Source: Spirochaetales bacterium (GTDB lineage Bacteria > Spirochaetota > Spirochaetia > DSM-2461). Taken from it: 42,856 nucleotides of DNA. The notes beneath the pieces are model-generated. The model was not told where the DNA came from. It did not search any database and saw nothing but the letters and a program-made list of their open reading frames with translations. Numbering within the stretch: the first letter of the stretch is position 1; each line of letters opens with the position of its first letter. The translations under genes and the position numbers were made by a program. Positions 27,200 through 34,045 of the stretch are shown piece by piece. The stretch lies in assembly GCA_028532905.1 (NCBI GenBank), contig JAQQAM010000169.1, forward strand, positions 1 through 42,856. The letters are read 5' to 3'.

Positions 27200-27234
27200 G
27201 GACTGTCTCTTACACGGAGACAGTCCTGTTTTTT
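27200..27234 (+). terminator. Rho-independent terminator after the aminotransferase
   Basis: GGACTGTCTC (27200-27209) pairs perfectly with GAGACAGTCC (27217-27226) over a 7-nt loop and is followed by TG and six Ts (27229-27234). It separates the aminotransferase from the CheY operon. Confidence 0.93.
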
Positions 27235-27321
27235 CTTTGCCCAAGTCTTTGCTCCAGGCTTTAGTGAACTGCTCATAAATAATCTTTGCCCCCTCACAGA
27301 AAATGCCCCATAATGATTAGT

Positions 27322-27696
27322 ATGAAAATACTGATTATAGATGACTCTGGTGTCATGCGCCGGATTCACAAAAACACTCTCATTGAAAACAAGATTCCCG
27401 AGGAAGCCCTTATTGAGGCCGCCGACGGGAAAGAGGCTCTGCAGCTGGCCAGCAAAAACGAAATAAACCTTTTTCTTGTAGACTGGAACATGCCCAATCT
27501 AGACGGTCTTTCTTTTGTGGAGCGGATCAGAAATACGGAACGGTATAAAACCACACCCATCATCATGGTCACCTCGGAAGCAGCCAAATACAATGTGATA
27601 CAGGCCATAACAGCAGGGGTAACCGATTATGTGGTCAAACCCATACAGGGAACGGTTCTCTGGGACAAAATTTCCAACTATATAAAAAGCGAGTAG
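27322..27696 (+). CDS. CheY-like single-domain response regulator
   Basis: A 124-residue receiver domain with no output domain. It carries the acidic pair Asp7/Asp8, phosphoacceptor Asp54 in LFLVDWNMPNLDG, Thr84 and Lys106 in DYVVKP, all the residues needed for phosphorylation. The start could be the ATG at 27322 or one at 27313; neither has a clear Shine-Dalgarno. It leads a tight operon with CheX, a membrane kinase and a haem lipoprotein. It may address the flagellar motor or act as a phosphate shuttle within this pathway. Confidence 0.88.
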   Translation: MKILIIDDSGVMRRIHKNTLIENKIPEEALIEAADGKEALQLASKNEINLFLVDWNMPNLDGLSFVERIRNTERYKTTPIIMVTSEAAKYNVIQAITAGVTDYVVKPIQGTVLWDKISNYIKSE

Positions 27697-27700
27697 TCAG

Positions 27701-28159
27701 GTGAAAGCCAAATTCATCAACCCATTTATCAATGCGTCCCAGAGACTGTTTCAGGAATATATGAAGCTGGACGTCCATGCAGGCAAACCCTTTCTTCTGG
27801 CGGACCCCAGAAACCTGAAAGGGGTTTCGGCCATCATCGGTCTGGCCGGAGAGACCACAGGAGCAGTTGTCCTGACCTTCTCCAGAGAAACCGCCATAGA
27901 GATGGTCTCCCGTCTGGAAGGGAAAAAATATGTGGCCCTGGGTGCCGAGATACTGGACGGTGTGGGAGAAATGATCAATATCATTGCCGGTAATGCCAAA
28001 AAGGATCTTCAGGACTACAAAATTGTGATATCCCTTCCCGGCATCATTACGGGGAACGACTATAAAATAAACTGGCCTCAGGGTGTTCCGGTCATATCCA
28101 TTCCCTACGAATCGGAACTGGGTCCCTTTGCCATAAACGTTTCCATCAAGGAAAGCTGA
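27701..28159 (+). CDS. cheX: CheX-family CheY-P phosphatase
   Basis: A 152-residue protein with the CheX/CheC-type phosphatase signature ExxN at Glu90-Asn93 in LDGVGEMINIIAGN and a second conserved Asn98. CheX is the main CheY-P phosphatase in spirochaetes such as Borrelia. The start is GTG, 4 nt after the CheY stop. Pairing with CheY and a kinase in one operon supplies the full phosphorylation and dephosphorylation cycle. The gene normally sits in larger che clusters; here CheA, CheW, CheR and CheB are absent. Confidence 0.88.
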   Translation: MKAKFINPFINASQRLFQEYMKLDVHAGKPFLLADPRNLKGVSAIIGLAGETTGAVVLTFSRETAIEMVSRLEGKKYVALGAEILDGVGEMINIIAGNAKKDLQDYKIVISLPGIITGNDYKINWPQGVPVISIPYESELGPFAINVSIKES

Positions 28160-28160
28160 A

Positions 28161-30359
28161 ATGAAACTGCAGTCCATTCAGGTAAAAGTTATTTCTCTGA
28201 TTCTGCTGGTTATGGTCTTCGCCGTAAGCCTGTCCATATCCTTTGCCATCCGGAATCAGAGGGAAAATCTGATAGCCGCCTCACAGCAGACCCTGGCTCT
28301 CAATACACAGGTTCTGAATCTCACCATCAGAAATATCATGCTCAACGGAGAAGCTCCTCTGGCCAACAGTACAATGAATGATCTGAGGAATATGCCGGAA
28401 TTTCTGGAATATGAGATTTACCGGAGAGACGGAACCCTGGCCTTCAGTGACTATGAGACTCTGGACTTTGTAAACAGCTTTCAGGATATGATCATGTTCG
28501 AACAGACTCCCCGCCTTGAGGGAGGTATGAACGGCAGTACCGGTTTTCAGGACGTTCTCCGGTTTAAGACACCCCGTTCCAGCCTTAATGAAGAGGCAAG
28601 GGAGATGGAATATTTCTTTCCCATCCTGAACTACGCCGAGTGTCGGACCTGTCACGGAGAGGATCATTTTATCAGAGGGATCTCCCACTTCAGAATCAGC
28701 CTGGGAGATGTATACGACAAGGTCAGTTCTGCCGGGCTGATACTGTCGGTTTTCTTTCTGGGAGTAGGCCTCTTTATTTTTGCGGGCATCATCATAATGC
28801 TCAGAAGGGTTATCATCCGTCCGGTTCTCTCCATAGGCAATGTGGTTTCCCTGGTGGGAGACGGCAACCTGGATGTGGACATCAATCTGAAACAGAGAGA
28901 CGAGCTGGGAGAACTGGCCGGCCGTATCAACGGCATGATCCGGGGACTGAAAAAAAGCAAGGCTCTGGAGCTTGAGAATACTCGGATAGAGGCCCGTTTG
29001 AAGGAGAGCCGGAAATATCTGGACAATATCAACGAAGGTCTTCTTCTGCTGAATCCCGATTTCACCATTACAGATGAATACTCATCCTATCTGGAAGAAC
29101 TGTTTGAGACAAAAAACATTGCCGGCTCCAGTTTCCGCCGCTTCGTCCTGGGTAGCGATGAAGAGGGAGAGGAAGCCAGGGAGCTGGATCAGTTCCTCAA
29201 TATTCTGTTTAACAACAGAACAGCCGCCATGAATATGATTATGGAGATCAATCCTCTGAACCGGAAAGAGATGATTCTTCCGGGGGGAAGGAAAATCGTC
29301 GTCTCCGCCCGGTTTCAACGGATAGAAGAAAATGAAACCGTGGAGAATGTGATGGTTCTGTTTCAGGACCTCACAGAGATTCAGGCGACAAAAGAAGCTC
29401 TGGAAGCAGAACGGCAGACCCGTGAATCCGAACTGGAACAAATTGCCGCCATTCTGAAACTGGGTCCCGGTGTTTTTGAAGATTTTGTAGCCTCCGCCCA
29501 TGAGGTTTTGAACTTTCTCAAGGAGAACTCCGATTCTCTGGGAAATGAGGAGATTATCAATAAAGCCTTCCGGGACACCCATTCCCTGAAAGGAACTGCC
29601 CGGTACCTTAAATTTGCAACTCTGGAACAGACCGCTCATACCCTGGAAAGCCGCTTTGACAGCTTCAGAAAGGGAGACGCTCCTGATCCGGGCAGCCCCT
29701 CCCTGGAGGATCTGCTCAGCAGCCTTAACACAGAAGTGGAGTCCATCAGAAAGACAATAGACCGGTTCAGACAGTTTTCCGTCAACCGGGGCAGTGACAA
29801 CCCTGAACTGGATATGTTCAGGATGCAGCTGAATGATATGGTGGAGGATCTCTCGGAGGAACTGGACAAGAATGTAAAGCTGGATTTTCATTCAGACTGG
29901 AGCCGGATTCCCGGACTCAGCCTGCTGCAGAACACGGTGTTTCATCTGATCCGGAATGCTGTTGATCACGGTATAGAAGACTCCTTTGAACGCCTTGCGG
30001 CCGGAAAGGATGAGACAGCCCGTCTGGGATTGAGTTTTATCCGTCAGGAAGACAGCCTGCGGCTTCAGGTCAGTGACGACGGCAGAGGCCTCGATTTTAA
30101 AGCACTGGAGAAAAAAGCCGTTGATGCGGGACTTTTGAAACCCGGCAGGCACTTCCCGTCCCAGATTCTGAATGCCATGTTCAAACCCGGCTTCAGCAGC
30201 AGTGACAGGGTTTCAGAAATATCCGGAAGGGGTGTGGGACTGGATGCGGTAAAAGCGGATGTAAAAAAACTGAACGGGAAAATCAATGTGAAAACAGCTC
30301 CGGCAAAAGGCTGCACCTTCAGTCTGATCATTCCCCTTACGGAACTGGAGGATAAATAA
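28161..30359 (+). CDS. Haem-binding (CxxCH) membrane sensor kinase with Hpt and CheA-type ATPase domains
   Basis: A 732-residue sensor. TM1 (about 8-30) is followed by a periplasmic domain (31-190) whose end contains CRTCH (Cys161-His165), a c-type haem attachment site in the context PILNYAECRTCHGEDHFIRG. TM2 (191-214), a HAMP segment (215-268) and a PAS-like region (285-405) follow. An Hpt-like domain has the phosphorylatable His474 in DTHSLKG. The ATPase domain has HLIRNAVDHGIED (N box), DDGRGLD and GRGVGLDAV. The protein ends at LTELEDK, so the CheW-binding P5 domain of CheA is missing, and there is no receiver domain. It should pass phosphate from His474 to the adjacent CheY. The ATG follows the CheX stop by 1 nt. 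Confidence 0.88.
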   Translation: MKLQSIQVKVISLILLVMVFAVSLSISFAIRNQRENLIAASQQTLALNTQVLNLTIRNIMLNGEAPLANSTMNDLRNMPEFLEYEIYRRDGTLAFSDYETLDFVNSFQDMIMFEQTPRLEGGMNGSTGFQDVLRFKTPRSSLNEEAREMEYFFPILNYAECRTCHGEDHFIRGISHFRISLGDVYDKVSSAGLILSVFFLGVGLFIFAGIIIMLRRVIIRPVLSIGNVVSLVGDGNLDVDINLKQRDELGELAGRINGMIRGLKKSKALELENTRIEARLKESRKYLDNINEGLLLLNPDFTITDEYSSYLEELFETKNIAGSSFRRFVLGSDEEGEEARELDQFLNILFNNRTAAMNMIMEINPLNRKEMILPGGRKIVVSARFQRIEENETVENVMVLFQDLTEIQATKEALEAERQTRESELEQIAAILKLGPGVFEDFVASAHEVLNFLKENSDSLGNEEIINKAFRDTHSLKGTARYLKFATLEQTAHTLESRFDSFRKGDAPDPGSPSLEDLLSSLNTEVESIRKTIDRFRQFSVNRGSDNPELDMFRMQLNDMVEDLSEELDKNVKLDFHSDWSRIPGLSLLQNTVFHLIRNAVDHGIEDSFERLAAGKDETARLGLSFIRQEDSLRLQVSDDGRGLDFKALEKKAVDAGLLKPGRHFPSQILNAMFKPGFSSSDRVSEISGRGVGLDAVKADVKKLNGKINVKTAPAKGCTFSLIIPLTELEDK

Positions 30360-30883
30360 TGAAACCTGTGTGCACTCTGATTCTGCCCCTGTTTCTGACT
30401 CTTTCGCTGTTCAGCGGATGCAGTAATAAATCACCCGAACCTCTCATGGAAGCCCTGCAGTCATCGGATATATCCGGTGAACGCCTGTGGGAAAGGATCT
30501 CAGAGGAGGCTCCCTATGAAGACTACAGCCAATGGCCCGGTCACGAAGGTCTGCAGCCCGGCCAGTCCCCCCACGGCGCCTGGCACAGAGTCTACGCCAA
30601 CAAGCCTCTTGTTGATGCTCTGCCGGTGGCCGATGGAACAGCCCCTTATGGAACCATAATCGTCAAAGAGAATTTCACATCTTCCCGAGAGCTGGACAAA
30701 CTGACGGTCATGGCCAAGGTGGAGGGGTATAACCCGGAGAACAATGACTGGTTCTGGGCCATGCTGTCTCCCGAGGGTGAGGTTCTTGCAGAAGGAAGCC
30801 CCGGGGGATGTATCTCCTGTCACAGCGGAATGAAATATAACGATTACATCATAATCAAAAATCTGGATGAGTCCCTGGAATAA
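30359..30883 (+). CDS. Cytochrome P460-like haem lipoprotein
   Basis: A 174-residue exported protein. A signal peptide with lipobox LFSGC (Cys21) predicts lipid anchoring. The mature domain follows the cytochrome P460 pattern: WPGHEGLQPGQSPHG, AWHRVYAN, GTIIVKENF, LTVMAKVEGYNPENNDWFWA and a C-terminal haem motif CISCH (Cys151-His155). P460 proteins oxidise hydroxylamine or bind NO, but this branch is mostly uncharacterised and may only be a redox or NO-binding cytochrome. Its ATG overlaps the kinase TAA by one base (TAATG), so the two are translated together, suggesting that it supplies or modulates the signal sensed by the kinase. Confidence 0.85.
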   Translation: MKPVCTLILPLFLTLSLFSGCSNKSPEPLMEALQSSDISGERLWERISEEAPYEDYSQWPGHEGLQPGQSPHGAWHRVYANKPLVDALPVADGTAPYGTIIVKENFTSSRELDKLTVMAKVEGYNPENNDWFWAMLSPEGEVLAEGSPGGCISCHSGMKYNDYIIIKNLDESLE

Positions 30884-32370: not shown

Positions 32371-33936
32371 TCAGGAGGATTCTCCGGGGAGTTCCTCCAG
32401 AGCCTTTACATCGCTCATCCTGAAGAAGGTCATGGAATCCTTCAGGGAGCGGGACTGCCCTGCCAGTTGATTGGCGGAGGCGGCCATCTGATCCGATGAA
32501 GCGGCATTGCTCTGGATAACACGGTCCAGCTGCATAATAGCCTGATTGATCTGCTCCACTCCGCTGGTCTGTTCCATGCTGGCAGCCGATATTTCCTGAA
32601 TCAGAGCTGATGTCTTTTTTATTTCCGGAACCAGTTTCTTCAGCATATCTCCGGCTTCAGAGGCCTTGTTCACAGTAGAGAGGGACAGCTCGCTGATCTC
32701 GGAAGCGGCTTCCTGACTCCGTTCCGCCAGTTTTCTGACCTCAGAGGCAACCACTGCAAATCCACGGCCCTGCTCACCGGCCCGGGCAGCCTCGATGGCA
32801 GCATTCAATGCCAGAAGATTGGTATTCCGGGCAATCTCTTCAATAATGGAAATCTTTTCGGCGATAATCTTCATGGCTTCCAGAGCATCTCCCACAACTT
32901 CACCGCTGTGTTCCGCATCTTCACTCACCCGTCTGGCGATCCCTTCGGTCTCTCTGGCATTATGGGAGTTCTGTTCAATGTTGGAACTCATCTCTTCCAT
33001 GGAGGAGGAGACCTCTTCCGCCGCAGCAGCCTGACTGGAGGAACCGTCGGCAATTTCACGGGCGGTATCGGCAAACTGCTCGCTTCTGTAGCTCATCTCA
33101 TCGGATGACCGGCGGACATCCCCGAAAATTTTCCGTAAACTGCCAACCATAGTGTCCAGGGCTCTGGCCAAATCTCCGATTTCATCTGATCTGCCCAGGT
33201 AGGTCCGGGGGAGTTCCACATCCAGATTCCCTTCGGATACCTCTTTGGTCAGGGCCACCCCCCGGGTTATGGGAACGGCAATACGTCTGCTCATAAAAAA
33301 GCCAAGTCCGATTCCCAGTACGGCGAGAACCAGGAAAACAAGCATCAGTTCTATCACCACACGGGCCTTGATTCTGTTTCCCATGGCATAGATTTCATCC
33401 ACAGGAATCCCCACATAGAGAATCCCGATGAGCTCACCGCCGTAGTCCATAAGGGGTTCATAGGCTGTAAGGTAATTTTTACCCAGAATAAAAGCACTCC
33501 CCAGAAAACGGGTTTTATTCATGATAGGCTGGTAGGCGGCGCTCTCTTTCCCCAGATAGGTTCCTATGGCCCGGCTGCCGTCATCCTTTTTGATATTTGT
33601 GATAACCCGGATAAAGTCATCCCCGTCTTTCATAAAGACAGTGGCTGTTATGCCCAGTTTTCCGGCAAATTCATCCACAAAAGTGTTGCTGTTGACGGTC
33701 TGGTTTCTGGAATCCACAATAACACCGCGGCTCAGCCTGAGATTGCCGTATTCCGCATCCACAGCCCTTACAAAGGACTCTATATCCCCTTCCACTTTCA
33801 TGGTGAGCGCGGCCACAGACACATCCTCCACCAGGTTGCCCAGGCCGATCCGGGAGATGATAAGCCCCCCGATGCTGATACAGAGAACCAGAGTAATTAT
33901 AAAAAGGACAAGTCGTCCTGTGATTGACAGTTTCAA
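32371..33936 (-). CDS. Methyl-accepting chemotaxis protein with periplasmic Cache domain
   Basis: A 521-residue chemoreceptor. TM1 (about 8-30) and TM2 (about 195-215) flank a periplasmic single-Cache domain ([47 protein letters not shown]). HAMP and a cytoplasmic coiled coil follow, with the conserved tip [42 protein letters not shown] (given by its core [20 protein letters not shown]). It signals ligand binding to a CheA/CheW complex encoded elsewhere. The start is TTG with AGGAGG 6 nt upstream. No CheR-binding tail pentapeptide is seen; the chain ends LEELPGESS. Confidence 0.93.
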
Positions 33937-33997
33937 AACAATCCTCCTGATATTCGTAAGATCTGTTATTAATAAATCAGAGCAGATTCTACATATC

Positions 33998-34045
33998 ATT
34001 ATAAGAGGAGTACTATATAGATTTCAAACGGATGTAACTGTTACA
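33998..34045 (-). promoter_or_regulatory. Chemoreceptor promoter and upstream dyad
   Basis: On the minus strand TTGAAA (34027-34022) and a perfect TATAAT (34003-33998) are 18 nt apart. Six bases further upstream, TGTAAC-T-GTTACA (34033-34045) is a 6+1+6 palindrome that could bind a regulator. Confidence 0.65.

Follow-up and report, generated by a model that had tools for sequence, protein, structure and literature searches.

Can a chemotaxis-type kinase that carries its own haem sensor work without receptor arrays? The question is raised by four coupled genes in a 42,856-nucleotide stretch of a Spirochaetales bacterium (GenBank assembly GCA_028532905.1, contig JAQQAM010000169.1, forward strand), which is called the window here. 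The genes encode a CheY, a CheX, a membrane kinase and a cytochrome-P460-family lipoprotein. They are spaced by 4, 1 and -1 nt, and the kinase and lipoprotein genes overlap in TAATG. A first-pass annotation, made from the sequence of the window, had described this layout, and the coordinates bear it out. In its usual description, CheA has no sensor and depends entirely on receptor arrays and CheW, and the P460 enzyme family is known from nitrifiers and methanotrophs. We think it rather probable that the cassette encodes a chemosensory-type phosphorelay independent of arrays, in which a haem sensor reads nitric oxide (NO) or redox state and the P460 lipoprotein is a non-catalytic partner.

Conservation of the Four-Gene Order

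A search for the same gene order in other spirochaetes had been proposed as a check. Twenty-six genomes of the family were searched and the contigs of named genomes were scanned, most of the genomes compared being draft assemblies. Counting the window, 14 spirochaete loci show the CheY-CheX-kinase-P460 order. Nine are complete and the others are truncated at contig ends; none of the 14 has an intact contrary order. Within the family, full or nearly full kinase orthologues occur in genomes G005 (75% identical), G018, G020, G022, G023, G011 and G012, and a contig-cut one in G024; every one stands in this order as far as its contig extends. Further loci were found in Spirochaeta sp. UBA9216, Spirochaetales MAG2, Spirochaetia GH26, CSMAG_1928 and Dive100_bin10.36. 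In G016, a P460 gene precedes a sensor gene that runs off the contig.

The aminotransferase and Mrp genes that flank the cassette in the window are shared with G005, and the flanks listed for other genera differ. A rival explanation, that chance or hitch-hiking made the four genes neighbors and that they are no single system, would suit the ordinary housekeeping genes up- and downstream in the window. An order unchanged in 14 loci of several genera, mostly with different flanks, already contradicts this explanation, which we consider highly improbable.

Kinase, CheY, and CheX

The HAMP, Hpt and HATPase_c domains that the first-pass annotation had given to the kinase were recovered by Pfam (Table 1), and both the predicted phospho-acceptor His474 and the CXXCH motif, invariant in orthologues, are located where it had placed them. 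The ATPase domain matches CheA P4 structures (6s1k, 3.1e-32), and its N, G1 and G2 boxes are invariant in the orthologues compared. A PAS domain had also been claimed. Pfam did not recognize one in this kinase, and the assignment comes only through the aligned region of paralogue L040, which is PAS_9 by Pfam (5.9e-6).

CheA is built of P1, P3, P4 and P5, and the CheW domain was present in 100% of 13,673 CheAs surveyed (PMC10782961). In the cassette kinase, no CheW (P5) domain was found by Pfam, the protein ending 5 residues after the ATPase domain, and no H-kinase_dim (P3, PF02895) was found at E ≤ 1, unlike in two CheAs of the same genome, which do match PF02895. Because it lacks both P3 and P5, the kinase cannot be classed by domain content as a CheA, even with an ATPase of CheA type. 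The earlier picture, in which CheY, CheX and a kinase with no CheW domain make up a self-contained relay, is thus supported, and the gene order is conserved in other spirochaetes.

The response regulator and phosphatase of that picture were identified by Pfam as well. CheY carries the Asp54, Thr84, Tyr103 and Lys106 of a CheY receiver; together with Asp7 and Asp8 these residues are invariant in 7 orthologues, Asp54 at the position given before. The ExxN motif of CheX is unchanged across the orthologues compared.

The Haem Sensor Domain

The AlphaFold2 model of the periplasmic domain gave GSU0935 (3b42, 1.9e-5) and GSU0582 (3b47, 1.7e-4) as top Foldseek matches. WalK followed at 3.5e-4, and Tll0287 itself was matched only at E 0.6. 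With a profile of eight members, 3b47 ranked first among solved structures (E 0.007). On fold and residues we assign the domain to sCache_heme (DUF3365/Tll0287).

In GSU0935 the haem is ligated by His144 and Met60, the latter being displaced by NO or CO (PMC8396549). The family has been given the name sCache_heme. NO binding has been measured for it, and members fused to signaling modules show NO-sensor properties; a HAMP-bearing member releases NO slowly, as is typical of NO sensors (PMC12889525). A sensor that instead reads redox, by a switch of its c-type haem from His/Met to His/water ligation, would make the P460 protein an electron donor or acceptor and NO incidental. Met60 is invariant, and redox-linked Met60 ligation has been described in the Geobacter domains GSU0935 and GSU0582, for which a redox role was proposed (PMC8396549). 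The slow NO release of the HAMP-bearing member (PMC12889525) speaks against it, as do the pockets of the P460 family, which are built for small ligands and not mainly for electron transfer. We regard a pure redox sensor as possible and rather doubtful.

The P460 Gene as Partner of the Sensor

The haem sensor occurs in 27 of 393 Spirochaetota genomes searched. Among ten sensor proteins whose outputs were examined, eight carry HAMP plus a class III nucleotide cyclase, one an MCP and one HisKA plus ATPase. Nearly all sensor-cyclase genes are adjoined by a P460 gene, which lies on either side and usually overlaps. With related genomes treated as independent, P460 was detected by Pfam in 21/27 sensor genomes vs. 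15/366 others (p = 4e-20), and a cytochrome-c assembly protein in 26/27 vs. 113/366 (p = 7e-12). The assembly protein is present in all 21 good-quality sensor genomes. In G370, and in G281 following the P460 gene, ResB and CcsA genes lie right next to the sensor-cyclase gene, which suggests dedicated cytochrome maturation.

Because the pair recurs with a cyclase output and ResB/CcsA genes lie beside two cyclase loci, we take the P460 gene, on this genomic evidence, to be a real partner of the sensor, as the first reading of the window had held for the lipoprotein. The association with cytochrome-c assembly, together with the adjacent ResB/CcsA genes, is the best available pointer that sensor and P460 protein carry haem c. 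No earlier description of a P460 protein with chemotaxis or adenylate cyclase was found in the open-licence literature. Members of this haem sensor family at L061-L063 and L090 have MCP or HisKA outputs and no P460 gene beside them.

The Pocket of the P460 Lipoprotein

Foldseek matched the model of the lipoprotein to 7ead (1.5e-4, TM-score about 0.5) and to 9hrk/6hiu (about 1e-3); with a pLDDT of 72, the model confirms the fold only moderately. The CXXCH motif lies where it had been reported and is invariant in orthologues. Matches by phmmer to designed Kelch-like proteins were ignored as short repeat matches (GYNPENNDW).

Three pocket positions are tabulated for P460/c'-beta proteins: the cross-link Lys, a distal carboxylate, which is needed for NH2OH oxidation (Table 2 of PMC11928373), and a distal cap, which is Phe or Arg in all tabulated structures (PMC11928373). 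In a HMMER alignment to TtCP-beta (7ead), Lys103, Thr116 and His72 of the lipoprotein correspond to Phe61, Gly82 and Phe29, respectively. In the comparison with N. europaea P460 (2je2), the counterparts of Lys103 and Thr116 are Lys70 and Glu96, respectively (note that the 2je2 letters were taken from the database side of a search whose seed sequence was approximate and partly wrong). Lys is at least 90% conserved at the cross-link position. The carboxylate position holds Thr116, and the cap position His72, which is invariant in a 32-sequence alignment, the loop alignment being uncertain in the cyclase-linked branch.

The lipoprotein looks able to cross-link its haem but not to oxidize hydroxylamine. 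With no carboxylate (Thr116) and with His72 for Phe/Arg, hydroxylamine oxidation is unlikely, and we rejected it on the Thr at the carboxylate position. From the NO, redox or hydroxylamine sensor first suggested for the locus, hydroxylamine turnover therefore drops out as unlikely, and NO or redox is the better guess.

The lipoprotein might also be an enzyme that detoxifies NO, hydroxylamine or peroxide, co-expressed with the sensor and without part in signaling. Its membership of the P460/c'-beta superfamily and the conserved cross-link Lys of catalytic P460s would agree with this. For hydroxylamine, the Thr in place of the required carboxylate (PMC11928373) counts against an enzyme, and one gene standing right beside the sensor, in either order and with several outputs, better suits a dedicated partner. 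We judge the enzymatic role unlikely.

Proposed Signaling Path

In the relay that we favor, the periplasmic sCache_heme domain would hold a covalently bound haem c, with His165 and, probably, Met60 as its ligands. Binding of NO, or a redox-linked ligand change, at this haem would displace Met60 and move the helices, and the signal would run through HAMP and the PAS-like domain to the CheA-type ATPase, which would phosphorylate His474 of its own Hpt domain. From there the phosphoryl group would pass to Asp54 of the cassette CheY and be removed by the cassette CheX. The P460 lipoprotein, tethered beside the sensor, would have no catalytic part: as a haem partner it would bind NO or carry an electron, and tune or deliver the signal.

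Several points weigh against this proposal. The sensor domain of the window has no Pfam match (PF11845, PF21563); seven of eight relatives match PF21563 weakly (best E 0.006), and relatives L061 and L090 exceed the cut-off. The family link rests on fold, weak profile matches and residues. Kinship of the genomes inflates both association tests. A P460 protein is not obligatory for the sensor, because no P460 gene adjoins its cyclase fusions in G142 and G211 or its fusions to MCP and HisKA. Redox instead of NO could be the signal, and other kinases encoded in the genome could also donate phosphate to the cassette CheY.

CheW-Less Relays in the Phylum

CheY-CheX pairs also stand beside CheW-less Hpt-ATPase membrane kinases with other front ends, e.g., MASE6 in G014 and G016. 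A profile of the cassette CheX found 20 further loci, most of which hold a CheY-CheX-kinase trio whose kinase ends at the ATPase domain. The kinase gene precedes CheX at L165 (579 aa) and L160 (562 aa). In several genomes, among them G052, G099, G122 and G358, a sensor-cyclase-P460 pair is present as well as a trio that stands apart from it and has a different front end. Since both modules are held separately in these genomes, the window cassette looks, from this distribution, like a recombination of two modules already in the phylum.

Related kinases were seen elsewhere. Locus L014 (145-2898, plus strand) encodes a protein that joins an ammonium transporter to Hpt and CheA-type ATPase domains, with no CheW domain by Pfam, and L030 (1468-4221, minus strand) encodes the same kinase, judged by its near-identical start and length; the two may use the kinase core of the cassette to sense ammonium. 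In genus g4, L040-L043 are HAMP (or transmembrane)-PAS-Hpt-ATPase paralogues of 568-599 aa with neither CheW nor haem sensor. Their neighbors, named from reading the sequences, are methionyl-tRNA formyltransferase and peptide deformylase-like genes.

No earlier description of a relay with a CheW-less CheA-like sensor kinase was found in the open-licence literature. A wider proposal is that Spirochaetota hold widespread array-independent relays of a CheW-less CheA-type sensor kinase with its own CheY and CheX, and that the P460 protein of the haem version, with its new pocket (Lys at the cross-link position, His cap, no carboxylate), signals and is not an enzyme. We hold this proposal to be nearly evenly balanced, leaning slightly to the negative. 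If true, a CheA-type kinase with its own sensor, CheY and CheX shows chemotaxis signaling running without arrays, and a receptor-tied P460 protein gives the P460 enzyme family a signaling role. Such a P460 protein also opens the sensing of NO or redox by environmental spirochaetes to direct tests.

Possible Relation to the Flagellar Motor

A canonical cheA-cheW/R-cheX-cheY operon is present in the genome of the window, and control of motility by the cassette is therefore only one possibility. The kinase could be a branch of canonical chemotaxis, with its CheY as the link to the flagellar motor. FliM (C270) is encoded in the genome, as is FliG, and both the CheY active-site residues and the motifs DWNMP and YVVKP are preserved in the cassette protein. 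Against a motor branch stand the low identity of this CheY to the canonical one (28%, vs. 48% to the trio CheYs), the kinase without the array-joining domain and the presence of a separate CheX in the cassette. A motor output is a serious possibility, though we incline against it.

Locus L118 (G000:C160, 1212-3029, minus strand) encodes a 605-aa protein in which FliM, a FliN-like stretch and the middle and C-terminal domains of FliG are joined. A FliN gene lies upstream of it, and relatives of the fusion occur in G006 and G010-G013. This fusion was rejected as a special target of the cassette CheY: G005 has the cassette without the fusion, and G006, G010 and G013 show the opposite.

Flanks and Features of the Cassette

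The terminator reported upstream of cheY is visible by eye as a hairpin, GGACTGTCTC-N7-GAGACAGTCC followed by TGTTTTTT (27200-27235), though in the terminator scan only the minus strand gave a score. The new promoter said to lie downstream was not established: the candidate is a 9/12 consensus match, and the region gave 7 promoter matches vs. 4.0 ± 2.2 in shuffles. It was set aside, as the scan count is at chance level. A Cache 3/MCP chemoreceptor gene (32371-33999, minus strand) lies close downstream of the cassette and has no evident link to it.

Table 1. Positions of the cassette features in the window and of related loci elsewhere (L numbers).
Feature	Position	Strand	Evidence or remark
Intrinsic terminator between upstream aminotransferase gene and cheY	27200..27235	.	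10-bp stem, 7-nt loop, T run on both strands
CheY-type single-domain receiver	27322..27696	+	PF00072 1.7e-25; Asp7, Asp8, Asp54, Thr84, Tyr103, Lys106
CheX CheY-P phosphatase	27701..28159	+	GTG start; PF13690 1.7e-22; ExxN motif Glu90/Asn93
Membrane haem-sensor kinase, 732 aa	28161..30359	+	TM (transmembrane), sCache_heme, TM, HAMP, PAS-like, Hpt, CheA-type HATPase
Predicted periplasmic c-haem sensor domain, residues 31-195	28251..28745	+	AlphaFold2 pLDDT 88.6; Foldseek
Met60 codon, predicted distal haem ligand	28338..28340	+	invariant in 40 relatives; aligned with 3b47 Met
CRTCH c-type haem motif, residues 161-165	28641..28655	+	Cys161, Cys164, His165 invariant in 40 relatives
HAMP domain, residues 214-264	28800..28952	+	PF00672 2.6e-8
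PAS-like region, residues about 283-412	29007..29396	+	aligns with PAS_9 region of paralogue L040
Hpt domain	29475..29696	+	PF01627 1.2e-10; predicted phospho-acceptor His474 (codon 29580-29582) invariant
CheA-type HATPase, residues 589-727	29925..30341	+	PF02518 1.6e-15
Cytochrome-P460-family lipoprotein	30359..30883	+	PF16694, 41.2 bits (cut-off 27)
P460 lipoprotein sites	His72 30572-30574; Lys103 30665-30667; Thr116 30704-30706; CISCH 151-155 30809-30823	+	lipobox Cys21
ResB/CcsA haem-attachment genes beside sensor-cyclase (and P460) genes	L104 926-3231; L119 142-2117	minus	
CheY-CheX-CheW-less kinase trios	L151-L170		many families of the phylum; front ends MASE6, HAMP or unrecognised

Comparison With Known Systems

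The cassette kinase has in common with CheA a P1-type Hpt, a P4-type ATPase and, probably, work with CheY and CheX; it differs from CheA in lacking CheW (P5) and P3 and in having its own membrane sensor (PMC10782961). As in the canonical spirochaete cheA-cheW-cheX-cheY operon, CheX and CheY are dedicated partners, but the cassette is without receptors, CheW and CheA arrays, and its CheY and CheX are of a separate lineage. The sensor resembles the sCache_heme family in fold, CXXCH, the Met60 position of GSU0582/GSU0935 and the arrangement of transmembrane segments and HAMP. The outputs described for that family are cyclase, HisKA and MCP, with none of CheA, Hpt or P460 mentioned in the paper on it (PMC12889525), whereas the cassette output is Hpt plus CheA-type ATPase with a coupled P460 gene. 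Finally, the lipoprotein shares the PF16694 fold and CXXCH with cytochrome P460/c'-beta and a Lys at the cross-link position with true P460s (PMC11928373), and it is set apart by Thr at the carboxylate position, the His cap, a lipid anchor and a signaling receptor as neighbor gene.

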